Origin: Scytonema millei VB511283
Lineage (GTDB): Bacteria; Cyanobacteriota; Cyanobacteriia; Cyanobacteriales; Chroococcidiopsidaceae
DNA: 64,000 nt
Direction of reading: 5' to 3'
Assembly: GCF_000817735.3 (NCBI RefSeq)
Contig: NZ_JTJC03000003.1
Location: forward strand, 186,001-250,000
This document shows, one piece after another, positions 47,116 through 59,773 of this stretch. Positions within the stretch are counted from its first letter, which is position 1; each line of letters starts with the position of its first letter. The notes beneath the pieces are model-generated. The model did not search any database. It worked only from the letters and a program-made list of their open reading frames with translations, and had not been told where the DNA came from. The translations under genes and the position numbers were made by a program.

Positions 47116-48357
47116 ATGGTTTCACTCGCTCGTAAAAACCTGCTGGAAGATATTCCTCGCTTTTTGGTAGCGCAAGCAGGAATTATGTTCGCCGTGAGCC
47201 TGGTAACAATTCAAACAGGGATATTCAATGGATTTACGCGATCGGCGGCACAGTTAATATATAATGCCAATGCTGATATTTGGGTAACTTCTGATACATT
47301 AGTTCAGCCAGAACTCAGCTTGCCGCTACCAGCAACAACATTAGACCAAGCTCAGGGAGTAGCAGGAGTAGCACGCGCTGAAGCACTGATTTTTAAGAGT
47401 GCTGTTTGGCGACATTCCAGCAGCGATATCAATTTGGTACGGGTGATTGGTTTCGATCCGCAAGGACAACTATTTAACCCCGACAATTTGATTCAGGGTA
47501 GTAGGCAAGCTTTGCAACAACCTTACACCGCGATCGCCGACACTAGCACGTTGCGATCGCTAAACGTGAGCAAAGTTGGCGATCTGGCAGAACTCGGTTC
47601 TCTACCAGTACGTTTGGTAGGCTTAACTCAAGGCAACCGCTCAATTACTTCCAATCCATTTGTTTTCACGTCTTTAGAGAATGCCAATGCTTATGCAACT
47701 GGCGGTCAGAACGCTAGGTTGTCCTGTAAGTTGCAGACTGGTTCGGAAGACATTCAGTGTACGAGTATACCGACAAATCAGAAGCAGAGTCCTCAAGCGA
47801 AACCGCGCCAGCTAGCAGCTTCAGACACGATTTCTTTTATTTTAATTCGCGCTCAATCTGGGCAAGACCTGCAACAGCTCAAGCAGAGATTAGAAGCAGC
47901 TATACCCAATACCACTGCATATACTCAAGCTGAGTTGATTAAGAAAACACAGCAGTTTTGGCAGCGACGAACGGGGGTTGGTTTTATTTTGGGGTTGGGT
48001 GCAACCGTAGGCATTATCGTAGGGGGCATTATTGTAGGTCAAATTCTCTATTCTTCCGTATCTGACCATTTGCGGGAGTTTGGCACGCTTAAAGCAATGG
48101 GGGCATCCGATTGGACTATCTATGGCGTAATTATCGAACAATCACTTTGGATGGCAGTTTTAGGGTATATCCCTGGTATAGTTCTTTGCTTTGGAGTTGG
48201 TGCATGGACTTTTGCAACGCAAGGTATAACGATCTTGATTACCCCTGCTACGGCAATCGCCGTGTTTGGCATTACGGTAGCAATTTGTGTCGGTTCGGCA
48301 ATCTTTGCCATTCAAAAGGTAACGCGGGTCGATCCGGCAATCGTCTTCAAGGCATAA
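47116..48357 (+). CDS. devC: DevC-type ABC exporter permease
   Basis: 413 aa with an N-terminal membrane helix, a large periplasmic MacB-PCD-like domain (~45-290) and three C-terminal FtsX-type helices (GVGFILGLGATVGIIVGGIIVGQILY, SLWMAVLGYIPGIVLCFG, TPATAIAVFGITVAICVG). The start MVSLARKNLLEDIPRFLVAQAGIMFAV is typical of DevC, the permease of the DevBCA glycolipid/efflux exporter family. The ATPase gene follows 204 bp later. No HlyD-like DevB gene is next to it, so the adaptor must be encoded elsewhere or be unnecessary. The exported substrate is unknown. Confidence 0.88.
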   Translation: MVSLARKNLLEDIPRFLVAQAGIMFAVSLVTIQTGIFNGFTRSAAQLIYNANADIWVTSDTLVQPELSLPLPATTLDQAQGVAGVARAEALIFKSAVWRHSSSDINLVRVIGFDPQGQLFNPDNLIQGSRQALQQPYTAIADTSTLRSLNVSKVGDLAELGSLPVRLVGLTQGNRSITSNPFVFTSLENANAYATGGQNARLSCKLQTGSEDIQCTSIPTNQKQSPQAKPRQLAASDTISFILIRAQSGQDLQQLKQRLEAAIPNTTAYTQAELIKKTQQFWQRRTGVGFILGLGATVGIIVGGIIVGQILYSSVSDHLREFGTLKAMGASDWTIYGVIIEQSLWMAVLGYIPGIVLCFGVGAWTFATQGITILITPATAIAVFGITVAICVGSAIFAIQKVTRVDPAIVFKA

Positions 48358-48561
48358 TTTCCTTCTTCCCAGGGAGAGAAAAAAACTATTTACAATATCT
48401 ATATACAACTTCATAAATGCTTCATTTATTCCGAAAGCTATATAGGGAGAAATAAATAAGGTAAGTAGAATACATTCATGCATTACAAAGATTAATATTT
48501 TTTTCCTGGCTACTCCAAATTTTCGTGAAGTTAAAACCATATCGATTCAATATTTGCAATA

Positions 48562-49335
48562 ATGACAGCCTCTTTAATCAATTTCGCCACTGCAATTAAG
48601 CCTTCAGTCAAGCACCGCAAAAGATCGGCGGAATCGAACTGTGGTGCAAATATCCCAGAATCGTCAGCCATTGTCGCCAAAGGGATAGAGATGGCATTTC
48701 AGTCAGGACAACAGCAGTATCCCGTGCTGAAGGGAATCGACCTTGAAATTCGAGCTGGTGATATTCAATTACTGATGGGACCATCCGGTTCGGGTAAGAC
48801 AACCTTACTCTCAATTTTGGCAGGATTGCTTACGCCAACAGAAGGATGTGTTTACTTGCTTGGCAAAGAAATTACTAGAATGTCCCGTGAAAAGCTGGCA
48901 AAATTTAGATTACATAATATTGGTTTTATCTTCCAAGGTTTTAACTTATTTCCGGCGCTAACGGCAGCAGAAAATGTCGAGTTAGTGCTGAACTATAAGG
49001 GGCTTAATGGTGCGATCGCCCAAAAACAAGCGCGAACTTTGCTAGAACAAGTAGGATTGGGGGCGCAGGTGAACCAAAAACCCAGCGATCTATCCGGCGG
49101 ACAAAAACAGCGAGTGGCGATCGCCCGTGCTTTGGCTGGTAATCCCAAATTGATTATGGCAGACGAACCAACGGCAGCTTTAGACTCTCAAAGCGGTCAC
49201 AACGTGATTCAGTTACTTCGCAATTTGGCGAAAGAGCAAGGTTGCACTGTTTTAATGGTGACACACGACCCCAGGATTATTGACGTTGCCGATCGCGTCA
49301 GTTATTTAGAAGATGGGATGTTAAAGCAACATTAG
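48562..49335 (+). CDS. devA: DevA-type ABC exporter ATPase
   Basis: 257 aa ABC ATPase of the LolD/MacB/DevA group. Walker A is MGPSGSGKTTLLSIL, Q-loop FIFQGFNLFPAL, signature LSGGQKQRVAIARAL, Walker B LIMADEPTAALD, and H-loop MVTHDPR. The first ~40 residues are a variable tail before the ATPase core begins at AKGIEMAFQSGQQQYPVLKGIDL. It pairs with the DevC-type permease directly upstream. An inverted repeat after the stop (49340-49369) may act as terminator. Confidence 0.9.
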   Translation: MTASLINFATAIKPSVKHRKRSAESNCGANIPESSAIVAKGIEMAFQSGQQQYPVLKGIDLEIRAGDIQLLMGPSGSGKTTLLSILAGLLTPTEGCVYLLGKEITRMSREKLAKFRLHNIGFIFQGFNLFPALTAAENVELVLNYKGLNGAIAQKQARTLLEQVGLGAQVNQKPSDLSGGQKQRVAIARALAGNPKLIMADEPTAALDSQSGHNVIQLLRNLAKEQGCTVLMVTHDPRIIDVADRVSYLEDGMLKQH

Positions 49336-49339
49336 AAAT

Positions 49340-49369
49340 CGTAGGGTGCGTTAGATAACGCACCCTACG
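49340..49369. repeat. GTAGGGTGCGTT inverted repeat after devA
   Basis: A 13-bp perfect stem (CGTAGGGTGCGTT with AACGCACCCTACG) and a 4-nt loop. This is a familiar type of cyanobacterial intergenic repeat and could double as a terminator, though no U-run follows. Confidence 0.8.
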
Positions 49370-49385
49370 AGAAATTTCGATCTGG

Positions 49386-49447: not shown

Positions 49448-50410
49448 TTAGGTTAATTCTTTCACAATTTGACGCAATACCTCTTCCACCGATCGCGGTT
49501 GCCAGCCTAACTCTTTTCTCGCCTTGGTAGCGTCAACCCGCACGCAGCGATCGTAGACGTAATGAACTCGTTCGCGGCTGAGGGGTGGTTGCCATTTCAA
49601 CAATCTGCCGATTGGATCGAGAATATTACTGACAAGCTTTACCAGAGATTTGGGTGCTTCCTTGGGAACGGGAATTCCTGACTCTTGGGAGATAATTTGA
49701 AACATTTCCTTCGTGGGCAAATCTCCGGCAGAGATAATGAAATGTTCGCCAGTTTTGCCTTTTTCAGCAGCTAAAAGCATCGCTTGTACCAAGTCATCAA
49801 CGTGGACGATCCCCGTAATGCGATCGCCTCCAGCCCATACTTTTAGTCCGCCTTTGAGAAATTGTTTCAGTACGGGTCCAAAATGGGGATCGTCAGAACC
49901 AAAAATTCCCGAAGGCATGACGCTAACTATAGGTAAACCTTGGGCAGCGAATTGGTCGGCTAACTTTTGTGCTTTGTATTTAGTCACGTCATAAGCAGAA
50001 GAAAAATCAGTTTGAGTGCGATTAAAAGTTTCGTCAATAACTTTTCCTTGAGTATCACCGTAAATTCCGACAGTGCTACAATAAACAACTTTTTCTACTT
50101 TTAATTCTTGGGCGACATCTAAAACGGCGTGGGTTCCTTCGACATTGACCCGTTCCATCTTGGCTGCATCGACTATGCCTAATTCCACATAAGCCGCCGT
50201 GTGAAATACCACGTCTACACCAGCCATAGCAGTGCGGAGGACAGAGCGATCGCTAATATCGCCGTAAACTAACTCTGTGGGGCAGTCAGCTAGACGGGAA
50301 AGGTCGCTAGACTTGCGTACCAAACCAACAACAGTATCTCCTCGTTGGGTTAAAGCACGGACTAAATGAGAACCTGTAAAACCGTTAGCTCCAGTAACTA
50401 GTGCTTTCAT
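49448..50410 (-). CDS. NAD(P)-dependent epimerase/reductase, candidate CerR-like ketosphinganine reductase
   Basis: 320 aa extended SDR from ATG 50410. Longer frames read into GGTTGAC repeats and are rejected. The Rossmann motif is VTGANGFTGSH; the catalytic set is CSTVGIYG (Ser), and AYDVTKYKAQ (Tyr-xxx-Lys). The substrate half includes GRLLKWQPPLSRERV. General annotation would be NAD-dependent epimerase or dihydroflavonol-reductase-like. In bacterial sphingolipid loci an epimerase-type SDR, CerR, reduces 3-ketosphinganine, and this gene follows an alpha-oxoamine synthase and a GNAT acyltransferase in the same orientation, so that role is proposed. Alternative: an HpnA-like sugar epimerase. 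Confidence 0.85.
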   Translation of the reverse strand: MKALVTGANGFTGSHLVRALTQRGDTVVGLVRKSSDLSRLADCPTELVYGDISDRSVLRTAMAGVDVVFHTAAYVELGIVDAAKMERVNVEGTHAVLDVAQELKVEKVVYCSTVGIYGDTQGKVIDETFNRTQTDFSSAYDVTKYKAQKLADQFAAQGLPIVSVMPSGIFGSDDPHFGPVLKQFLKGGLKVWAGGDRITGIVHVDDLVQAMLLAAEKGKTGEHFIISAGDLPTKEMFQIISQESGIPVPKEAPKSLVKLVSNILDPIGRLLKWQPPLSRERVHYVYDRCVRVDATKARKELGWQPRSVEEVLRQIVKELT

Positions 50411-50530
50411 GAAGGTAGTTGGTAGTTGGTAGTTGGTGGTTGACGGTTGACGGTTGACGGTTGACGGTTGACGGTTGACAGTTGTTGCCCCTCTGCTCCC
50501 CTGCTCCCCTGCTCCCCTGCTCCCTTGTCT
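50411..50530. repeat. Heptamer tracts between SDR and GNAT genes
   Basis: TTGGTAG, GGTTGAC and CTCCCCTG tandem units. They separate two genes of the candidate operon. Confidence 0.85.
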
Positions 50531-50565
50531 CCCTTGTCCTTCTTCAGCCAAGACATTTGAACCGC

Positions 50566-51702
50566 TTACAAAGCTTTCTCGTAAATCCGGTAGGTTTTGT
50601 GAATTTTACCGCCAGCAGCCTCTACTAGCTTGCGAGAAGGGGAGTTATCTTCGTAAATGTGTCCTAATTCTGCCCGTTTGTAAGGCTTGCCTTTTTTGAT
50701 TCCGCCTTGCATTCCCAAATAAATCAGAGCTAAAGAAACCATTTTGCGGCGATATTCAGGAAGGGAGCAAATGTAAATGACTCGCCCTTGGTCAATTTGG
50801 CGGCGATACCACAAGAATTTTAACGTGCCGAGCCAATCGAGTTTGCCACCTAGATGCTTGAGGGCGATATTATAGTCGGGTAGTCCCATCCACATCCCTA
50901 CCATTTCACCGTTATATTCAGCGATGGGAAAAACATCAGGGTCGATCAGAGATTGAAACGATCGCGCTTTATCTAAAAACTCTGCTGGGGTTTGCGGTGA
51001 ATAACTGTAGTTGTCGGTAAACATGCGCACGAGGAGATCGTAAACTTTCAGGGCATCTGCCTCAAATGCCTCGCCCTTGGTTCTAATGGGACGAAAAGTT
51101 ATGCCAGCTTTACAAGCGATACGATAAGCCTTTTCAAATTCCGTTGGTAAAGGTTTATCTAGGGGAAAGTTATATGTGTAAGCATCTTTACCTTTGTACC
51201 AACCATCCCGTTCGATGAACTCCGGGTAATAAGGTGGATTGTAAGGCATCAAAATCATTGGCGGGGAGTCAAAGCCATCGACTAAAAATAAACAGCCGTT
51301 GTGAGTTGAAAAATCGATTGGTCCCCTAACTACAGTCATGCCTTGTTCTCGCAGCCAATCACAAGCAGTCTGGAGGAGGGCTTGAGCCACATCAAAATCG
51401 GAGATACATTCAAAAAAGCCGAAGACTCCGACTTTCTGACCTTCTTTCTCTATTAACCGTCGATTCACAGCAGCAACAATTCTGCCGATTGGTTCTCCTG
51501 ATTCGGATAGAGCGATAAATTGTTGTGCCTTACCGTACTCGAAGAAAGTATTGCTAGGCAAGAATTGCTTGGCTTCACTGCTGCGGATGGGGGGAACCCA
51601 GTAGGGATCGTTCGCATAAACCCTAGCAGGAACATCGAGAAAAAGTTCTTGTTCTGCTGGAGTTGTGACAGGCTTAATTTGAAACTTTGTAATCGTTTGC
51701 AT
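50566..51702 (-). CDS. Large GNAT-fold acyltransferase, candidate bacterial ceramide synthase
   Basis: 378 aa with an acyl-CoA N-acyltransferase fold. The N-terminal part has FLDVPARVYANDPYWVPPI, GRIVAAVNRRL, VGVFGFFECISDFDVAQALL and VVRGPIDFSTHNGCLFLVDGF; the C-terminal half repeats a GNAT-like core (RVIYICSLPEYRRKMVSLALIYLGMQG, ELGHIYEDNSPSRKLVEAAGGK). No membrane helix. The family is broad and often of unknown function. Bacterial ceramide synthase (bCerS), which N-acylates the long-chain base, is reported as a GNAT-type protein; the position between an alpha-oxoamine synthase and an SDR favours that reading. The assignment is inference from class and context. Confidence 0.82.
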   Translation of the reverse strand: MQTITKFQIKPVTTPAEQELFLDVPARVYANDPYWVPPIRSSEAKQFLPSNTFFEYGKAQQFIALSESGEPIGRIVAAVNRRLIEKEGQKVGVFGFFECISDFDVAQALLQTACDWLREQGMTVVRGPIDFSTHNGCLFLVDGFDSPPMILMPYNPPYYPEFIERDGWYKGKDAYTYNFPLDKPLPTEFEKAYRIACKAGITFRPIRTKGEAFEADALKVYDLLVRMFTDNYSYSPQTPAEFLDKARSFQSLIDPDVFPIAEYNGEMVGMWMGLPDYNIALKHLGGKLDWLGTLKFLWYRRQIDQGRVIYICSLPEYRRKMVSLALIYLGMQGGIKKGKPYKRAELGHIYEDNSPSRKLVEAAGGKIHKTYRIYEKAL

Positions 51703-51750
51703 GATTTACACAGCAGTGTCAAAAAAATTGTGCGATCGCTCTTGTTTGTA

Positions 51751-51799
51751 ATTGGATGAAATACACGCTCCGTAGGGGCGCACAGCCGTGCGCCCCTAT
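51751..51799. repeat. Palindromic repeat with side box (copy 5)
   Basis: The box ATTGGATGAAATACA (51751-51765), a 6-nt spacer, and an imperfect palindrome GTAGGGGCGCACAGCCGTGC... (51772-51799). It lies between the synthase and GNAT genes. Confidence 0.85.
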
Positions 51800-51926
51800 A
51801 AATGTTATGGACGCAAGCGAAAATTATGTTTAAAAAAACGATTAAGACCAAAATACAGCAATGCATCCTGGTCTTAAAAAATTATCTAAGTTTTTAATAA
51901 TTGAATTTGGAATTTAGCTCGTTTCG

Positions 51927-53207
51927 CTAGGCGCTGATCATGGGTTTGTAGATCGTATCCCGAATTGCTACCATTCCTTCTACTAACCGATCCATATCCT
52001 CTTCGGTGTGCAAGGCATTCACGGTGATCCGCAAACGTGGCTTAGCAATATACCAAATTGCCGATGCCCAGATGCCGTGTTCTTGCATTAATTGACGGGC
52101 AAAGTATTTCGGATTGCATTCAGTCGGTAACACGACGGGGACGACGTTGGTTTCGCCCAAAGCTTCAAAATCATGCTTAGCCAAACGCGATCGCAAATAT
52201 TTGGTTTTTGCTTGCAGTTGTTGTACCAGTTCGGGATGTTGGCGCACTTGGCGAATGCTCTCCAAAGCAGCAGCAGCAGTAGGTGCAGGTAAAGAAACCG
52301 TTCCGATGGAGGTGGGAGAGAAATTCATCAACGGGATCAATTCAGCCACAGGACTGCTAATTGCTGCCCCAGCCGAAGCCGCAAACTTAGAAAATGTGGT
52401 CATAATCAACGGCACGATCCCCCGCGCGATCGCATTTTGAGGAGTTATTCCAAAATATTCGTAAATCCCCCTTCCCGTGGCTCCAATCGCACCGCTAGCG
52501 TGTGCCTCATCCATGACCAGCACGCTACCTTCATAGTTTTGCAACACGTCAAGCATATCTGGTAGAGGGGCGATGTCACCATCCATCGAGAAGACAGCAT
52601 CGGAAACCACCATAATTCTGTCGTCGGGACGGGCATAGCGATATAGTTTTCGCTCCAAGTCTTCAGTATCGCAGTGACGATAGGCTTTGACGCGGACGCG
52701 GGGGCTGTGGCTGAAGACTTTGCCAGAGCGAGTTCCGGCATTGACAACAGCCGAGACAATACAGCCGTGGTTGAGTACGTCAGTTAGGATCAGAGTCTCT
52801 CTCGTATTTTGAAATCCTGGTACGGGAATGGCGAGATGACAGAAAGCATCCATCAAGGCTTGCATTGCCATCCAAGCATTCAAAAATAGCTGGGTGTGGG
52901 GCAGATGCTTAAAAGCAGAAATCTCTGCTTCTAGTTGACGGTGTAAGTCAATGCGACCGTTTAAAACTGAAGTTCCACTATTAGAAGTACCGTACTGCAA
53001 AATCGCATCAATTGCCGCTTGCTGCACGGCTTCATTCTGTACTAGTCCTAATACATCATTGGTGCAGAATGTCAAGACATTTTGCCGCTTGCCCGTTGCT
53101 CCTTCTTCGATTTCAACTAAATTACCCTGACGGCGATGACAAATGAACTCGTCGGGGGCTAGCCCGCTGTCATATAAGCGCTGAACGTACTCTTTGACTA
53201 CTTGCAC
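51927..53207 (-). CDS. PLP-dependent alpha-oxoamine synthase, candidate serine palmitoyltransferase
   Basis: 426 aa from GTG 53207 with GAGGGGAG ~10 nt upstream. Fold-type I alpha-oxoamine synthase (relatives: BioF, KBL, ALAS, SPT), which condenses an amino acid with an acyl-CoA or acyl-ACP. Visible: FCTNDVLGL, YGTSNSGTSVLNG, NHGCI (ring-stacking His147), DEAHASGAIG (Asp233 to the pyridine N, His236), and Schiff-base Lys274 in TTFSKFAASAG. The lysine segment lacks the usual GTLSKA and GG, and LNAWMAMQAL replaces GYxAN, so it is divergent from BioF. It sits in a row with Rieske, GNAT and SDR genes. SPT is the favoured proposal; other acyl/amino-acid pairs are possible. Confidence 0.88.
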   Translation of the reverse strand: MQVVKEYVQRLYDSGLAPDEFICHRRQGNLVEIEEGATGKRQNVLTFCTNDVLGLVQNEAVQQAAIDAILQYGTSNSGTSVLNGRIDLHRQLEAEISAFKHLPHTQLFLNAWMAMQALMDAFCHLAIPVPGFQNTRETLILTDVLNHGCIVSAVVNAGTRSGKVFSHSPRVRVKAYRHCDTEDLERKLYRYARPDDRIMVVSDAVFSMDGDIAPLPDMLDVLQNYEGSVLVMDEAHASGAIGATGRGIYEYFGITPQNAIARGIVPLIMTTFSKFAASAGAAISSPVAELIPLMNFSPTSIGTVSLPAPTAAAALESIRQVRQHPELVQQLQAKTKYLRSRLAKHDFEALGETNVVPVVLPTECNPKYFARQLMQEHGIWASAIWYIAKPRLRITVNALHTEEDMDRLVEGMVAIRDTIYKPMISA

Positions 53208-53450
53208 GAATTTACTCCCCTCACCTGAAATTCCCAGATAGCTTTGTGCGTCTGGCTAAACATTATTAATATTTTCCCTGGTTAGGTATTTTTAGACTAT
53301 CCAGGCTCTTATTTCCTGCCGGAGGGCAGCTTAATTGAGTCTATGAATAAGACATTGTGACAGAAATATACCATCTCATCGCGATCGAGCTAGCGATCGC
53401 TGGCATGAATTGTCGATCCGAGATAATTGCTTCATGCGATTGGTGATGAA

Positions 53451-54584
53451 TTAGCTTGACTCTACTCGACCGGAGGAAATTGCTTCAGATAAAGACAGCG
53501 ATTCCTCCTGCTGGTTCCCTGAAAGTTGGGAAGACAGGGTTTTGCGGCGATATTGCTCGTATTGCCGCATCATGACTTTTTGCAGGGCAATGATTGCCGG
53601 ATTAATTTCTACATAGCGCCGTTGGGGGTTGTTTGAATAAGTGCGTTGCTCGCTCTCCATCATTTCGATATCTTGATCGAGAAACTTGGAAAATAGAAAG
53701 CGCCAGACATAAGCAGAAATCAGAGGTTTGAACGGCTGCACCAACCATTTAGGTAAATTCAGCCGCAGAAACATCAAGGTAAACGATTTGGTTTCCGCTG
53801 CTCCCATAGGCGATCGCATCAGGTACAAAGAGGAAACCCCCTCTAGAGAACTGTGGTAGTGGGGATATTGGTAATGGAGCGAGACAGTACGGGTTGTCAC
53901 CTCATCACCGCGATCGCTCAAACCCAGAATTTTCGTCATGACTCCCTTGTAAGACACTCGATAATCGGCATGAACCGATGATTCTGTCGTTTTCAAGCTA
54001 GTCAGCACGGGGTCAAACCAACCTTGGAGGTTTTTGTGTAAAAACCCGTGAAACACATCCATCGTGTTTTCGTTGCAGATGGTGAAATGCGCCTGGAAAT
54101 GAGCCGGAATTGGAACCATCAGACAATCTGGATCGTCGAATTCCGGTACTTCTGGTAAGGGAATGCTAGTTGCCAAACTCGCATCGCCAGGAAAAACCCA
54201 GATCAGATTGTATTTTTCGCAGACTGGATAACTGCGAACTTGAGCGCATGGTAGCTTGTGTGTCTCAGGGAGATATGGGATTTTGACGCATTGACCTGCA
54301 CCATTAAATTCCCAACCATGATAGGGACATAATAAATGTTTCCCCTGAATTTGCCCTTTATGGAGAGCTACACCCTTATGCGCGCAAGCATCCTCTAAAG
54401 CATGAAGTTTTCCGCCCGTGTCGCGGAAAACAGCGATTGCTTGTTTCCAGATCGTTACGGGCATAATATGACCAGGTTGCAGTTTATTTGCCCACCCAAC
54501 CGGATACCAGTAATCTGGATTAATCCCGATCTCGCGGATAGCATTCTGAACTGTCTGACTTGTTAAGGTCGTAGCCAGTTCCAT
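53451..54584 (-). CDS. Rieske non-haem iron oxygenase (aromatic-ring-hydroxylating type)
   Basis: 377 aa. The Rieske 2Fe-2S ligands are Cys67, His69, Cys86 and His89 (CAHKG...CPYHGW). The mononuclear iron site is NENTMDVFHGFLHK (His179, His183). The C-terminal part has a hydrophobic stretch (LPKWLVQPFKPLISAYVWRFLFSKFL) that may be a membrane-associated helix, as in the PAO/TIC55-like and choline-monooxygenase-like groups. It is the first gene of the minus-strand row 54584-49448. It could hydroxylate or desaturate the product of the downstream enzymes, but the substrate is unknown. A partner reductase is not encoded nearby. Confidence 0.9.
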   Translation of the reverse strand: MELATTLTSQTVQNAIREIGINPDYWYPVGWANKLQPGHIMPVTIWKQAIAVFRDTGGKLHALEDACAHKGVALHKGQIQGKHLLCPYHGWEFNGAGQCVKIPYLPETHKLPCAQVRSYPVCEKYNLIWVFPGDASLATSIPLPEVPEFDDPDCLMVPIPAHFQAHFTICNENTMDVFHGFLHKNLQGWFDPVLTSLKTTESSVHADYRVSYKGVMTKILGLSDRGDEVTTRTVSLHYQYPHYHSSLEGVSSLYLMRSPMGAAETKSFTLMFLRLNLPKWLVQPFKPLISAYVWRFLFSKFLDQDIEMMESEQRTYSNNPQRRYVEINPAIIALQKVMMRQYEQYRRKTLSSQLSGNQQEESLSLSEAISSGRVESS

Positions 54585-54708: not shown

Positions 54709-54905
54709 ATCAGCGATCAGTTGTCAGTGCAGAATGGGGTGTGGGGTGTGGGGTGTAGGGTGTAGGGTGTAGGGTGTGGGGTGTCAAGATTGTAAATTTC
54801 TTTCTCCGCGACTCTCCGCGACTCTCCGCGACTCTCCGCGACTCTCCGCGACTCTCCCTCAGCTCTCTTTCCCCGACTCCCGACTCCCGATTCCCGACTC
54901 CCGAC
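54709..54905. repeat. Tandem repeats in divergent Rieske/MFS region
   Basis: TTATCAG and GTGTGGG/GTAGGGT units, then five to six copies of a 10-bp unit GCGACTCTCC (about 54808-54857), then CCCGACT units ending 10 bp before the MFS start. The order GTGTGGG, then AAATTTCTTTCTCCGCG, also occurs at 40690-40753. Confidence 0.9.
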
Positions 54906-54914
54906 TTCCTCAAC

Positions 54915-56138
54915 ATGCGCAAATTATCACTATCGCCAACAGTAGCTTTTGCCGCGATCGCCCGTAACCCTCAGTTAATGGTGCTGATGGCGGCTGGCTC
55001 CCTAACTACGATGACTGGAGCAGTTTTTAACCCTGCCTTGGGGGAGATCAAACACCAGCTTCAGCTTGCTCCAGAGATTGGCGGTTATTTAGCAGCCGCT
55101 CATGTTTGGGCGCTGGGTCTTTTTAGTCTTCCCCTGGGAATTCTCTCCGATCGCGTGGGGCGAGTAAAGGTACTCGTTGTTTCCTTGCTTTGTTATGCCG
55201 TCTTTGGTGCGGCTGGAGTCACAGTAGACGATTTTCTCCCCTTAATCGCGTTACGAGGATGTTTGGGAATCGCTACAGCAGGCATTACATCCGCTAGCTT
55301 AGGTCTGCTCACGAGTATGTATGAGGGTGAGGAACGAGCCAAAGCATTAGGTTACGCCACGGGGACGCTGACGCTAGCGGGGATCGTCTTTCCATTGTTG
55401 GGGGGTGGAGTCGGCTATTTCTTCCACTGGCGATACATTTTCTGTCTGTACGCGATCGGGCTACCATTAGCAGTATTGACAGCCAAGATTTTGCCACAGC
55501 CACCCGAACGCACTTCAGTCAAAACAGAGCAAGAGCGACCTAAGCATAAACTGTGGCAAGTTTTAGGACGCTACCAAACAATTTGGTTATTGCTAACTCT
55601 GAGCTTGACATCAATCGTGATGTACTCAGTTGTCTTCTATACCCCGCAGTATTTCAAAGATACGATTAATGCCAACACGTTGACTAATAGCCTCGTCTTA
55701 GCTTCTCGTGCCTTGGGTGCAGCGATTATCTCTGCTTTTGGAGCCAGAAAGCTATCTCAGTCGTTGGGTTTGTATAAAGCCACGGCTGTCGGCTTCATCT
55801 TAATGGCGCTGACACTCAGCACGATCCCATTTTTACGAGAGATTAGTTTAATTATGTTAGCTGCGGTCGGTTTTGGTGCTGGATTTGGTCTGATCCTACC
55901 CAACCTTTACGATGCTCTGGCGGGTCTTGCGCCTTCCCAGTTGCGATCGAGCGTGCTATCAGCGGGGGCTGGAGCGGGCTTCATCGGGCAGTCTTTCTGT
56001 CCAATTGTGTTGGGCTTTGTCGTCAAAAATCACGGTATAGAAGCTGCTTTTTTTACGGCTGCAAGTGCTTCGATTGTCGTTGGGATGTTGTTGCTCTTGT
56101 TTGGGAGCAGGGAGCAGGGAGCAGGGAGCAGGCAGTAG
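54915..56138 (+). CDS. Major facilitator superfamily transporter
   Basis: 407 aa from ATG 54915; a longer frame reading through the 10-bp repeats is rejected. Twelve membrane helices are predicted. The DHA-type motif A is GILSDRVGRVKV after helix 2, and ALRGCLGIATAGITSA resembles motif B in helix 4; the central loop is basic (PERTSVKTEQERPKHK). It resembles drug/metabolite exporters. It is divergent from the Rieske operon and could export its product; inference only. The last ~10 residues (GSREQGAGSRQ) are read from GGGAGCA repeats, so a repeat now supplies the stop codon. Confidence 0.9.
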   Translation: MRKLSLSPTVAFAAIARNPQLMVLMAAGSLTTMTGAVFNPALGEIKHQLQLAPEIGGYLAAAHVWALGLFSLPLGILSDRVGRVKVLVVSLLCYAVFGAAGVTVDDFLPLIALRGCLGIATAGITSASLGLLTSMYEGEERAKALGYATGTLTLAGIVFPLLGGGVGYFFHWRYIFCLYAIGLPLAVLTAKILPQPPERTSVKTEQERPKHKLWQVLGRYQTIWLLLTLSLTSIVMYSVVFYTPQYFKDTINANTLTNSLVLASRALGAAIISAFGARKLSQSLGLYKATAVGFILMALTLSTIPFLREISLIMLAAVGFGAGFGLILPNLYDALAGLAPSQLRSSVLSAGAGAGFIGQSFCPIVLGFVVKNHGIEAAFFTAASASIVVGMLLLLFGSREQGAGSRQ

Positions 56139-56251: not shown

Positions 56252-57943
56252 CTAGCCACTGTCCCTATCTTCTGGTAACCTCACCTCTTGCTGTACCTGC
56301 AAGCCAGATAAGAAATTGCGGTCTTCGCTGATGTGGGGAAACTTGAGTTGAGAATCGGGAACTCCCCGTTCTATTTGACGTTGGCGGAGGAGCGCAAAGC
56401 TACCAGGGGCTAAAATGCGCAGTCGCGGGGGTGGAATGGGGTCTTTACGACTGATTTCGTAGTGGGTATTTGCTGCTTGTAATTTGCGATCGCATTCGTT
56501 TAAAAAAGCTTGGGGATCTTCAAGCGTATAACCATGAGCTAACTCAATATTGATTAAATAACGGGCGGGAAAATCATTTTCCGATAAAGTTATACAAAAA
56601 TCTTCTAGTAATAAGCTAAATTCCTGCTGTACGGCTTGCATCACGTGAGTCGCATGGGCTTCCGTCGTCTTTTCTGTTGTAGAAGAAATCAATCCTCCCA
56701 GGCGGTGGCGAAATACGATTAACGGTGTTTGTTCGTAGAATCCGACGACTTCGATCGCATCGCCAATATCGTAGCGATAAAATCCGTTATAACTTGTAGT
56801 CAGAATGCGATACCGTTCTCCTGGCTTAACTTCGGTAGCGAGTAATGTTTTCGGTTGTTCTGCTTGCCACTGGTCTTGAGGGATAAATTCAAAAAAACCG
56901 CTTTCCAGGGCTAAAATGCTGCTGTCGTTGTCGAGTTCGTGATAGATACTAAACATCCCTTCGGCAGAAGAAAATACTGCACCGAAAATTGGTGTGTTGC
57001 CGAAATAGGTAGGGAATCGCTGAAAGTAAAAGTCGGACGTACCCCCACGGGCGCAGGCGACAAAAGACAAATTTGACCAGGCGAGATGAGGGGTGAGCTT
57101 ACCTTCCGACTGGATAATTTCCCGTAATTTATTGGCTCGAAATGGATTGGCTGATAAGCGCTGCTCTAGATTCAGCCGTAGTTCCGGTTCTACTTCTAAC
57201 CAATTGGCAATGGTTCCTGTTTCGATATCTTGAATTAGGTCTTCAGCAAATTTTTCTAAGTAGTTGCAGGTACGGAGGATGAGCATCGGAAAGTTAGCCA
57301 ACATGCCTCGCATTAAAGGATCTTGTAAGGCAAATAATAAGGCGAGGTAATGACGGGCAGAACTATCTGCAACTTGGAGCGTCTCGTAAGGCTGGGCAAA
57401 AAATTGCTCGTACAGCCATTTATCCATGCTGAGGACACCCGCACTAGCAGGTCCGTAGGGAATACCAGCACTGGTACGTCCCCATTGTTGAGTAGAATTT
57501 GTCAGGAGAATTTTGCCAAACTGTTGCCCTCTAGAACGTAAGGCGGCGGTTAGAAAACCCATACTGGTTAGGGTAGCTTGACGAGTGATATTCTGCGATC
57601 GCCTCGTTGTCGGAATCATTTTCTTTTTCCCCGTCGAACCACTCGTCAGCGTCAAGTACACCACCGGATCGGCTGTTAAAATATTTTCTTCGCCCCCAGC
57701 AATGCGTTCTAGATAAGGTTCGTAACTGCAATACGGTAAAATTGGCACTCGTTCGCGAAAGCGATTGACTGTTTTAATCTCACCGAGCTGATATTTCTTA
57801 CCAAATTCTGTATCGCGATGAGCTTGTAATAAGCGCAACAAAAACCGTTCTTGTACTTCTGCCGTTCGGCGAGTTTTTTTGATAAAGTTTGCCTTTGTCA
57901 AACCTGTAACAGCATTTAAAGCGGACAGAACGAGATTGACCAT
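56252..57943 (-). CDS. GH3-family acyl-adenylating protein (copy A)
   Basis: 563 aa. The GH3 family, best known from plants, adenylates a carboxylate (jasmonate, auxin, salicylate) and couples it to an amino acid. Signature features: TLTSGSTGKKKMIP (ATP-binding Ser/Thr-rich loop), SAGIPYGPASAG, FSSAEG (second adenylate motif) and YNGFYRYDIGDAIEVVGFY. The N-terminus (TGLTKANFIKKTRRTAEVQERFLLRLLQAH) is typical of bacterial GH3 proteins. Substrate unknown. A paralogue of identical length lies just upstream (58082-59773), 138 bp away, pointing to tandem duplication. Confidence 0.92.
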   Translation of the reverse strand: MVNLVLSALNAVTGLTKANFIKKTRRTAEVQERFLLRLLQAHRDTEFGKKYQLGEIKTVNRFRERVPILPYCSYEPYLERIAGGEENILTADPVVYLTLTSGSTGKKKMIPTTRRSQNITRQATLTSMGFLTAALRSRGQQFGKILLTNSTQQWGRTSAGIPYGPASAGVLSMDKWLYEQFFAQPYETLQVADSSARHYLALLFALQDPLMRGMLANFPMLILRTCNYLEKFAEDLIQDIETGTIANWLEVEPELRLNLEQRLSANPFRANKLREIIQSEGKLTPHLAWSNLSFVACARGGTSDFYFQRFPTYFGNTPIFGAVFSSAEGMFSIYHELDNDSSILALESGFFEFIPQDQWQAEQPKTLLATEVKPGERYRILTTSYNGFYRYDIGDAIEVVGFYEQTPLIVFRHRLGGLISSTTEKTTEAHATHVMQAVQQEFSLLLEDFCITLSENDFPARYLINIELAHGYTLEDPQAFLNECDRKLQAANTHYEISRKDPIPPPRLRILAPGSFALLRQRQIERGVPDSQLKFPHISEDRNFLSGLQVQQEVRLPEDRDSG

Positions 57944-58081: not shown

Positions 58082-59773
58082 CTAGTCACTAGTCACTAAT
58101 AACTGCACTTCCCGTTCCACTTGTAAGCCAGCTAGGAAATTGCGGTCTTCGCTGATGTGGGGAAATTTTAGCTGGGAATCTGGTACTCCTTTCTCTAATT
58201 GTCTTTGCCGGACGATCGCAAAGCTACCAGGGGCAAGAATTCGCAATCTTGGTGGGGGAATTTGATCGTTGTTAATCCGCTTGACGGCGTAGGACGTGTG
58301 AATTGCACTGAGCTGACGGTCAAAGCGATCGAGAAATTGCTGCGGATTTTCTAATATTTTCCCAGGCGCAAGCTCGATATTCACCAAATAATAAGCGGGA
58401 ATGACATCATCAGATAAAGTAATACAAAAATCTTCTAGAGGTAAGTCAAATTCTTGTTGTAATACCTGCATGACTTGAGTGACATGAAATTCAGTAGTTT
58501 TTTCTGAGGTTGAAGACAGCAAGCCACCGCGCCGATGGCGGAATACAATCAGTGGCGCTTGTTCGTAAAATCCTACTACTTCCATGACATCGCCAATATC
58601 ATAGCGATAGAAACCACTGTAGTTACTCATTAAAATTCGATAGTAGTTTCCAGGTTTGACTTCGCTAGGCAGTAGTGTTTTTGGTTGTTCTACATCCCAC
58701 TGATCTTGAGGAATAAACTCAAAAAATGCACTTTCGATCGCTAAAATACTGGCATCAGAATTCAGCTCTGGGTAAATGCCAAACGCGCCTTCTGACGAAC
58801 AACAAACCGCGCCAAAACCTGGTGTCTTGCTAAAGTAAGCAGGAAAGCGCTCGAAGTAAAAATCTGAAGTTCCGCCTCTGGCTGCGACTGTAAAGGCAAG
58901 ATTCGACCATACTGCTTCGGGGGTGAGTCTACCTTCTGCTTGCAAGATTTCTTGTAGTTGTTTGGCACGGTTGGGGTTAGCGACTATTTGCCGTTCTAGT
59001 TTTAACCGCAATTCTGGTTCTAGTTGCAACCAAGGTGCAAGCATTCCTTTGTCAATGTCGCGAATAAAGTCTTCTGCATATTGTTCTAAATAGCCGCAGG
59101 TGCGGAGGATCAGCATGGGAAAGTTGGCGGCTATTCCCCTTGTATCGGGTTGTTGTAGCGCAAATAGCAGACACAGATAATGGCGCGTCAGGCTATCGGC
59201 TGCTTGCAGTGTCTCAAAGGGATGAGCAAATATTTGCTCGCAGAGAAACTTTCCCATCCGCAGGACTCCAACGCTAGCGGGACCGTATGGAATTCCACCA
59301 CTGGTACGTCCCATCAGTTGAGTTGAGTTAGTGGCGATAACTTTACCAAATTTAGAACCCCGTTGTCTTAATGCCGAGCTGAGAAAGCCAATACTAGTTA
59401 AGTTGGGACGGCGCAAGGAGTTTTGAAAGCGTTTGGTAACTGGGATGAGCTTGTGCGCTCCTGTAGAACCACTCGACAGGTTAAAAAAAACAACGGGATC
59501 GGGGGTGAGAATGTTCTGTTCCCCTTGGGCGATGCGATCGCAGTAGGGTAAATAGCTACTGTAGGATGATACGGGAATACGCTGGCGAAATTGCTCGGCA
59601 GTTCTAATATCTCTAAATCCATACTTTTGCCCTAGCTCTGTCGCCTGATAAGCTCGTAGTAAATCTCGCAGAAATCGCTCTTGTACTGCCTCAACTTGGC
59701 GCGTTTTTTTAACAAAGTTATCCTTTGTATGCTCGGCAACAGTTTGCAACAGTGGCAGCAATAAATTCGTCAT
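58082..59773 (-). CDS. GH3-family acyl-adenylating protein (copy B)
   Basis: 563 aa, clearly homologous to copy A along its whole length, with FNLSSGSTGAHKLIP, TSGGIPYGPASVG, CCSSEGAFGIY and YSGFYRYDIGDVMEVVGFY. The two ends share HISEDRNFL.GLQV. Differences cluster in the putative acyl-pocket regions, so substrates may differ. In the plant family the product is an acyl-amino-acid amide; bacterial members are little characterised. It is divergent from the JmjC-like gene at 59977. The spacer to copy A contains GTGGCTA heptamers (58014-58060). Confidence 0.92.
   Translation of the reverse strand: MTNLLLPLLQTVAEHTKDNFVKKTRQVEAVQERFLRDLLRAYQATELGQKYGFRDIRTAEQFRQRIPVSSYSSYLPYCDRIAQGEQNILTPDPVVFFNLSSGSTGAHKLIPVTKRFQNSLRRPNLTSIGFLSSALRQRGSKFGKVIATNSTQLMGRTSGGIPYGPASVGVLRMGKFLCEQIFAHPFETLQAADSLTRHYLCLLFALQQPDTRGIAANFPMLILRTCGYLEQYAEDFIRDIDKGMLAPWLQLEPELRLKLERQIVANPNRAKQLQEILQAEGRLTPEAVWSNLAFTVAARGGTSDFYFERFPAYFSKTPGFGAVCCSSEGAFGIYPELNSDASILAIESAFFEFIPQDQWDVEQPKTLLPSEVKPGNYYRILMSNYSGFYRYDIGDVMEVVGFYEQAPLIVFRHRRGGLLSSTSEKTTEFHVTQVMQVLQQEFDLPLEDFCITLSDDVIPAYYLVNIELAPGKILENPQQFLDRFDRQLSAIHTSYAVKRINNDQIPPPRLRILAPGSFAIVRQRQLEKGVPDSQLKFPHISEDRNFLAGLQVEREVQLLVTSD

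Follow-up and report, generated by a model that had tools for sequence, protein, structure and literature searches.

A gene set that probably directs the synthesis of a ceramide-like lipid was identified in a stretch of 64,000 nucleotides (hereafter the window) of the cyanobacterium Scytonema millei VB511283 (contig NZ_JTJC03000003.1, positions 186,001 to 250,000), which forms part of a genome of 5.97 Mb in 17 contigs. The genes encode a divergent alpha-oxoamine synthase (AONS) as the candidate condensing enzyme, a tandem-GNAT N-acyltransferase and an extended short-chain dehydrogenase/reductase (SDR), to which a Rieske oxygenase and further neighbouring genes would add optional tailoring. The set is real and conserved and, within the literature searched, apparently undescribed; it most likely works in the manner of ceramide synthesis, but its condensing enzyme belongs to none of the known types. 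An initial annotation, made without database searches, had proposed a ceramide- or sphingolipid-type operon here; the four open reading frames (ORFs) on the minus strand on which it was based are present, and their classes were confirmed by Pfam:

53451-54584, minus strand: Rieske non-heme iron oxygenase (SdmA-like), predicted tailoring enzyme (PF00355, 1.3e-23; VanA_C, 5e-08)
51927-53207, minus strand: divergent AONS, predicted condensing enzyme (Pfam PF00155, Aminotran_1_2, 5.3e-33)
50566-51702, minus strand: tandem-GNAT N-acyltransferase of the bCerS/YghO family, predicted N-acylation (Acetyltransf_1, 4.3e-07)
about 49448-50410 (ORF 49448-50551), minus strand: extended SDR (HpnA-like), predicted ketone reduction (Pfam Epimerase, 2.1e-42)

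Co-inheritance of the AONS, GNAT and SDR genes

A first survey covered 292 genomes sampled from the phylum, with counts that are not corrected for relatedness. The GNAT protein was searched at an E value of 1e-5, the AONS at 1e-90, and the SDR and the product of a neighbouring major facilitator superfamily (MFS) gene at 1e-60. GNAT matches were found in 40 genomes, of which the 22 with at least 55% identity (55-76% to the window protein) were counted as carriers of an ortholog and the 18 with at most 33% were set aside; one carrier, G011, holds an additional weak match. Orthologs of the AONS (71-81% identity) and of the SDR (61-76%) were likewise found in 22 genomes each, and the three carrier lists are identical. 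All three enzyme classes of a ceramide pathway are thus present together in each of the 22 carriers, and the AONS, GNAT and SDR genes are co-inherited, beyond chance. Ten of the 22 carriers have all three genes inside 10 kb, and in 6 no two of them lie that close. Contig breakage in draft assemblies can account for some of these six, two of which (G011 and G286) are single-contig genomes with the three genes far apart; in two further single-contig genomes, G002 and G066, the SDR gene is located more than 1 Mb from the AONS and GNAT genes.

The second survey was of 60 relatives, the genomes being partly shared with the first. The GNAT gene was present in 32 and the AONS gene in 33 of these, and the sole mismatch is a genome that is 73% complete (G301). 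Among members of the family, 18 of 19 possess the AONS gene, the remaining one being 65% complete, and both genes are present in both other genomes of the genus. One of these, G292, has a second GNAT copy (contig 3, 73129-74259) that is located on a different contig and is 74% identical to the query. Carriers and non-carriers are intermixed within the order. Across 31 loci, the distances between AONS, GNAT and SDR proteins correlate with each other (r 0.64-0.78, with none of 2000 permutations reaching any of these values), a correlation that strain relatedness alone would also give.

Gene order in cyanobacteria and beyond

The conserved clustering on which the initial annotation had made its proposal depend does recur among cyanobacteria. 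The loci considered here are those of the best 80 of 163 GNAT relatives (63-75% identity), some of which are on short contigs; 79 of the 80 belong to Cyanobacteriota and one is without placement. They are distributed over Leptolyngbyales (22), Nostocales (12), Oscillatoriales (6), Oculatellales (6), Coleofasciculales (5), Chroococcales (4), Chroococcidiopsidales (3) and others. The stretches read around these genes contained the SDR gene in 60 cases, the AONS gene in 41, the Rieske gene in 37 and the MFS gene in 21. The order AONS-GNAT-SDR within 4 kb was seen in 22 of the 80 loci, and Rieske-AONS-GNAT-SDR in order in 20. Where GNAT and SDR genes are on the same strand, the gap between them is at most 30 nt in 36 of 59 loci, often with a 4-nt overlap. 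The three genes also occur together in records of strains that are not marked as metagenome-assembled genomes (MAGs), for example Gloeocapsopsis crepidinum LEGE 06123, Phormidesmis priestleyi, Nostoc sp. FACHB-152 and Myxacorys almedinensis A. An uncultured Scytonema MAG (L079) has the GNAT-SDR pair, with no AONS gene within its 21-kb stretch.

Outside the cyanobacteria, seven plasmid loci were hand-picked, not drawn at random, from 44 GNAT matches, and flanks of 8-9 kb were read. An AONS gene was found near the GNAT gene in six of the seven. Triads of consecutive AONS-GNAT-SDR genes are carried by plasmids of Streptomyces sp. NBC_01001 (L074, 6757-10039) and Rubrobacter radiotolerans (L077, 6701-10068); downstream of the triad, the former encodes a condensation-domain protein and the latter an LTA-synthase-family protein. 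On an Acidisoma plasmid (L073, 5813-9146), AONS, SDR and GNAT genes are grouped, and this SDR gives no match to the window SDR.

The GNAT protein

The assignment of the GNAT protein to bCerS, as proposed initially, stands at the family level. It has full-length homology, at 26-34% identity, to proteins of Escherichia coli (YghO), Pseudomonas, Sphingomonas, Rubrobacter and Streptomyces, in a reference set that contains no Caulobacter protein. The Sphingomonas protein is 30% identical (E 5e-53) and E. coli YghO 26% (E 2e-42); no NCBIfam model matches the window protein. The Sphingomonas parapaucimobilis plasmid locus of this GNAT also encodes a serine palmitoyltransferase (SPT) that scores over the curated cut-off, an acyl carrier protein (ACP) and a gene in the CerR position, and E. 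coli yghO is adjoined by genes for an SPT over the cut-off, an ACP, an epimerase and a fatty acyl-AMP ligase. In a passage of PMC9386255, yghO and CC_1154 are given as N-acyltransferases of dihydroceramide synthesis.

In the GNAT tree, the cyanobacterial proteins form a clade (100/100), and this clade together with the bCerS group is split from seven other homologs (100/100). Taken apart from the cyanobacterial clade, the bCerS group has support of 96/97 and includes one distant cyanobacterial GNAT (G278). The AlphaFold model, with a predicted local distance difference test (pLDDT) score of 79.5, matches the tandem GNAT structures 2wpw and 7q3a. Judged by sequence, the protein is a member of the bCerS/YghO family. 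At the site of what we take to be the canonical acyl-CoA motif of GNAT proteins, RxxGxA, the Streptomyces protein has RARGLA, and RRKMV is found in 90% or more of 30 cyanobacterial rows, a difference that may point to an altered donor site in the cyanobacterial GNAT. An ORF of 988 aa in a distantly related genome of the phylum (L060, 9493-12459) has a C-terminal GNAT of the bCerS family, and the remainder of this ORF matched no Pfam family at E 0.01.

A divergent condensing enzyme

The pyridoxal phosphate (PLP) chemistry of the AONS appears intact: the PLP lysine Lys274, Asp233, His236, His147, Thr271 and Arg393 are kept in 14 of 14 cyanobacterial rows and are invariant in a 34-row alignment, and K274, D233, H236, H147 and R393 are also present in the BioF, KBL and ALAS rows. 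The initial annotation had linked the enzyme to SPT; the analysis did not show it to be one. The AONS scores below all NCBIfam cut-offs, both those of bioF (235.6 bits, cut-off 426.45), KBL (184.3/460 and 162.6/493) and ALAS (163.9/338.55) and those of the SPT models NF047600 (SPT-CFB; 170.1/640), NF047599 (165/500) and NF047603 (108.5/670). The SPT cut-offs are strict, since the AONS encoded beside GNAT genes in Streptomyces, Rubrobacter and Aureispira, for which an SPT model is the best, also fall short of them.

The initial annotation had suggested a phylogeny to place the enzyme with either SPT or BioF/KBL, and it was placed with neither. In a tree of 43 rows, in which the bootstrap had not settled and several rows are long, the cyanobacterial AONS form a 100/100 clade on a branch of length 2.56, outside the SPT clade (99/95) and outside the BioF/KBL/ALAS group (93/97). 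In an approximately unbiased (AU) test, union with SPT (p 0.28) and union with BioF/KBL/ALAS (p 0.32) were both not rejected, and for another tree, in which the window AONS is likewise outside the SPT clade, the program warned that the grouping of the window clade with E. coli BioF is a meeting of long branches. Identification as a certain SPT was dropped in view of the scores under the cut-offs, the position outside the SPT clade and the non-rejecting AU test. The AONS of the Streptomyces and Rubrobacter triads and a fused cyanobacterial AONS (G211) fall inside the SPT clade. The Acidisoma AONS, whose gene adjoins a GNAT gene, falls outside it, so that pairs of a GNAT with an AONS from outside the SPT clade are not unique to cyanobacteria. 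AONS domains also occur in long open frames of two cyanobacterial genomes (2746 aa in L199 and 1130 aa in L197); one of them groups with the Acidisoma AONS, and the other falls within the SPT clade, where its branch is long. An identity with the biotin enzyme of the genome was ruled out: the AONS is not this enzyme, because a separate BioF that scores over the cut-off (461 bits) is encoded elsewhere in the source genome.

The surroundings of the active site were compared between 14 cyanobacterial rows and 13 reference rows (8 of the SPT clade and 5 others). Clade-wide changes, in Sphingomonas numbering, are Tyr75 to Val/Ile, Gly134-Tyr135 to Ala-Trp, Ala160-Ser161 to Gly-Cys, Ser266 to Phe and Gly272 to Ala. 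Moreover, four loop residues are deleted and three inserts are present, at HLAIPVPGFQNTR, NAGTRSGKVFSHSPR and TPQNAIARGIVP. The sequence TTFSKFAASAG, which had been flagged initially as unusual, is real and is nearly constant across 34 aligned orthologs. The best PDB match by sequence is the SPT of Sphingobacterium (9.6e-38; 28.5% identity and 150 bits to 3A2B), which is also the best solved structure in a fold search with a model of the AONS built from 34 orthologs. This model has a pLDDT of 62.2, with values below 50 in the inserts and active-site stretches, and thus supports the fold class alone. Of the structure check that had been suggested for the acyl tunnel, the fold class was confirmed, and no conclusion on the tunnel is drawn since the model is poor there.

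The strongest alternative is that the AONS is a fast-evolved SPT, which together with bCerS and CerR would provide ordinary dihydroceramide by classical sphingolipid synthesis. We regard it as unlikely, though it is the best placed of the alternatives. The gene order agrees with that of the Streptomyces and Rubrobacter triads, the closest solved structure by sequence and by model is an SPT, and the AU test does not reject a union with SPT. Ceramides were reported in Scytonema julianum and Moorea producens, according to passages of PMC8895605 and, for Moorea, also of PMC6272925, and the Scytonema MAG mentioned above has part of the gene set. However, the SPT-CFB score of the window AONS is lower than its BioF score, whereas the Streptomyces, Rubrobacter and Aureispira enzymes score best on an SPT model, and the pocket changes extend across the whole AONS clade. 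The Moorea sample was collected by hand from the sea, and therefore other organisms could have supplied its ceramide. A ceramide-like pathway with a divergent condensing enzyme is the reading that we prefer.

The SDR

The SDR contains the sequences TGANGFTG and YDVTK, which we take to be motifs of extended SDRs. Its best NCBIfam model is the hopanoid-type epimerase HpnA, at 213.2 bits (cut-off 367.65), and an identity with HpnA was rejected on account of this distance from the cut-off; the same model ranks first for each of the five other SDRs scanned from AONS-GNAT loci. The initial annotation had likened the protein to CerR. It is 22-29% identical, near full length, to proteins in the CerR position (22-25% for three of them; 31% over 187 aa for that of Rubrobacter). 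In the SDR tree, which omits the Acidisoma row, the cyanobacterial SDRs (100/98) fall outside the CerR-position group (82/82), a placement without strong support, and their union with this group was not rejected by the AU test (p 0.28). The role proposed for the SDR rests on co-inheritance rather than homology.

Tailoring neighbours

The gene set extends past 49448-54584, as the adjoining MFS and GH3 genes show the same distribution pattern. The neighbours on either side are as follows:

54774-56138, plus strand: MFS transporter, candidate carrier of the lipid or an intermediate (PF07690, 9.3e-52), divergent to the Rieske gene
56252-57943, minus strand: GH3-type acyl-adenylating amide synthetase, copy a (PF03321, 5.2e-89)
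58082-59773, minus strand: GH3-type acyl-adenylating amide synthetase, copy b (PF03321, 1.9e-85)
47116-49335, plus strand: DevC-like permease and DevA-family ATPase, ABC exporter (TIGR01185, 143.7 bits, cut-off 290; TIGR02982, 262.5 bits, cut-off 295.8), convergent with the SDR gene

The two GH3 copies are 66% identical to each other, and the only NCBIfam model that matches them is OlsH (94.1 and 83.5 bits, cut-off 620). GH3 matches at 1e-40 were found in 22 of the 292 genomes; the 16 with at least 48% identity were counted as carriers of an ortholog, and 6 with 27-31% were not. All 16 belong to the 22 genomes with the AONS-GNAT-SDR set, and none is outside them. MFS matches (38-57% identity, E 1e-60 or better) were obtained in 18 of the 292 genomes, again all within the 22 carriers, including all 16 with GH3; that of G005 contains one stop codon.

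The Rieske protein has the sequences CAH and CPYH, presumably its Rieske ligands, and NTMDVFHGFLH, presumably the iron site. At 1e-60, matches were found in 42 of the 292 genomes, of which 15 with at least 56% identity were counted and 27 with 34-39% were not. Of the 22 carriers, 15 thus have a counted ortholog (56-67%), and of the 270 other genomes none has one; the 27 genomes with the more distant paralog include two carriers, G054 and G121. Rieske and GH3 orthologs occur together in nine carriers, GH3 alone in seven and Rieske alone in six; at least one is thus present in 22 of 22, and the two look like alternative or additive finishing modules. Formation of a carboxyl group by the Rieske enzyme followed by GH3 conjugation is not a general route, given the six carriers with Rieske and without GH3 and the seven with the opposite pattern.

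According to passages of the respective papers, the GH3 relative OlsH makes an N-acyl ornithine with ATP (PMC12493201), and the Rieske relative SdmA carries out three successive oxidations of one methyl group (PMC6385002). The best NCBIfam model of the Rieske protein is that of the SdmA-type 4beta-methylsterol monooxygenase (residues 13-348), and an identity with SdmA was rejected as the score is 229.1 bits for a cut-off of 600.

The exporter and MFS genes bear on a second alternative, which we consider improbable and clearly weaker than classical sphingolipid synthesis: the AONS would provide an amino-ketone, the GNAT would attach a short or medium acyl group, and a diffusible specialised metabolite would be exported by the MFS and DevCA proteins. 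The restriction of the MFS gene to carrier genomes, the adjoining DevCA-like exporter and the patchy distribution of the set are consistent with it, as is the fold match of the GNAT model, which is best with 2wpw, a tandem GNAT from clavulanic acid biosynthesis. However, the sequence family of the GNAT is that of bCerS, the GH3 relative of known function yields an acyl amino lipid (PMC12493201, in the passage concerned), and identities of 63-75% among the best 80 of 163 relatives, over some ten orders, fit a core function better. The DevC/DevA-like pair may be an exporter for the product or may reflect old synteny, and its link to the pathway is uncertain; among the best 80 loci a homolog of the ATPase was found in 24 and of the permease in 21.

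That the genes are neighbours for unrelated reasons, with the SDR an HpnA and the Rieske protein and SDR a sterol or triterpenoid pair like SdmA/SdmB, as their best NCBIfam models would have it, is very hard to sustain, since both scores are far under the cut-offs, HpnA is equally the best model for the five SDRs scanned from other AONS-GNAT loci, and the SDR gene is tied to AONS and GNAT while 7 of the 22 carriers are without a Rieske ortholog.

Proposed pathway

We infer the chemical steps of the ceramide-like pathway and their order, starting from the observed enzyme classes, the AONS catalytic residues, the GNAT family and the co-inheritance. The AONS is predicted to condense an amino acid with a long-chain acyl thioester under release of CO2, giving a 3-keto long-chain amine. 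The tandem GNAT of the bCerS family would add a second acyl chain to the amine, and the SDR would reduce the ketone, which would result in an N-acyl 2-amino-3-hydroxy (ceramide-like) lipid. Depending on the species, optional steps may follow, in which the Rieske enzyme would oxygenate the lipid and GH3, with the MFS protein as a partner, would conjugate it through an amide or ester bond. Candidates for the amino acid are serine, alanine, glycine or another, and candidates for the acyl donor are acyl-ACP or acyl-CoA. A non-standard substrate is a little likelier than serine and a palmitoyl thioester because the AONS pocket is changed, and in this light the doubt expressed initially about the amino acid and acyl donor was well placed. 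The unusual AONS may mean that the product is a new kind of lipid. A more specific version, to which we give somewhat less than an even chance, is a new class of ceramide-like lipids made by a new branch of long-chain AONS whose amino acid substrate is not serine, finished by the Rieske enzyme in some species and provided with a head group by GH3 in others.

Several points weigh against a ceramide-like product. By its sequence, the AONS lies outside the SPT clade and agrees with none of the SPT-specific tests made; Tyr75 is identical in all 13 reference rows and is Val or Ile in the cyanobacterial clade, and the other changed sites are nearly constant. The GNAT family is broad, with homologs of at most 33% identity in 18 other genomes, and in four genomes with such homologs the AONS groups with KBL; membership in this family is thus not proof of ceramide synthesis. 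Another SDR of the source genome is nearer to the CerR-position group (86/69) than are the cyanobacterial SDRs. No dedicated ACP or acyl-ACP synthetase gene was noticed adjoining the genes, such genes not having been searched for in the cyanobacterial loci, and in the E. coli and Pseudomonas clusters they are found beside the genes. One of the seven plasmid loci, that of Diaphorobacter, has no AONS gene in its flanks of 8-9 kb. In the window strain, a hairpin with a T-run between the AONS and GNAT genes may split the transcript. Finally, conservation and clustering do not by themselves identify the product.

Relation to known systems

The bacterial ceramide pathway, as known from Caulobacter and in a five-gene rhodobacterial version with AcpR and AasR, has the three enzyme classes, the GNAT family and frequent clustering in common with the window, the gene order of which is that of the Streptomyces and Rubrobacter triads. 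It differs in that the window AONS is outside the SPT clade, the SDR is not specifically placed with CerR, and Rieske, GH3 and MFS genes are added. With SPT itself (PDB 3A2B and 8GUH; NF047600), the AONS shares the fold class and the PLP Lys, Asp, His, His and Arg residues, but differs by its three inserts, the four-residue loop deletion, Ala-Trp in place of Gly-aromatic, Val/Ile in place of Tyr, and Phe in place of Ser after the Lys. The GH3 proteins belong to the family of OlsH, the GH3-type lyso-ornithine lipid synthetase of Singulisphaera, but reach 94 and 84 bits as compared to 620 and are tied to the AONS pathway. SdmA, the Rieske oxygenase of C-4 sterol demethylation in Methylococcus, is the best model for the window Rieske protein at 229 bits as compared to 600.

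In the bacterial pathway, SPT and bCerS are cytoplasmic and CerR is periplasmic, and the order of steps is debated, according to a passage of PMC11087976. Passages of PMC8895605, the one genetic study of this question among the matches listed, state that so far no genetic basis of cyanobacterial sphingolipids has been reported, name two cyanobacterial ceramides, those of Scytonema julianum and Moorea producens, without genes, and describe Nostoc punctiforme as lacking sphingolipids, with a BioF-like protein as its only AONS. The remark of the initial annotation that no cyanobacterial pathway has been characterised agrees with these passages. Elsewhere, SPT-like proteins were recorded in 38 phyla of the Black Sea, with E values of at most 1e-70 to known SPT as the criterion (passages of PMC11334938), and cyanobacterial homologs of human ceramide kinase are mentioned in a passage of PMC10331486. 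Among the matches listed in a search of open-licence literature, no cyanobacterial SPT/bCerS pathway was found. The 2022 paper that first described bCerS reportedly lists nine phyla and could name cyanobacteria.

Bacterial envelopes are shaped by ceramides, which also serve in signalling between bacteria and eukaryotes, roles that could matter for cyanobacteria, many members of which are symbiotic or crust-forming. The gene set provides candidate genes for cyanobacterial ceramides and makes the question directly testable. If the new class of lipids proposed above exists, it would be a component of the membrane or envelope in many orders of cyanobacteria and would escape SPT-based surveys. The gene set also suggests how searches centred on SPT can miss such a pathway: the window AONS, at 150 bits to 3A2B, would be expected to miss the Black Sea criterion of 1e-70.

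Other features of the region

The class of the SDR gene agrees with the initial annotation, but the start of its ORF is too far upstream. The first 47 residues of the ORF are translated low-complexity intergenic repeats and the orthologs align from MKALVTG, and therefore the start is set at about 50410. The segment between the GNAT and SDR genes (50411-50560) contains short repeats of the GTCAACC and GGAGCAGG types, which artificially lengthen the SDR ORF. Hairpins with T-rich tails are located on the minus strand at 51842-51877, in the gap between the AONS and GNAT genes, and at 49339-49370, after the SDR gene; the region shows no excess of such sites over shuffles.

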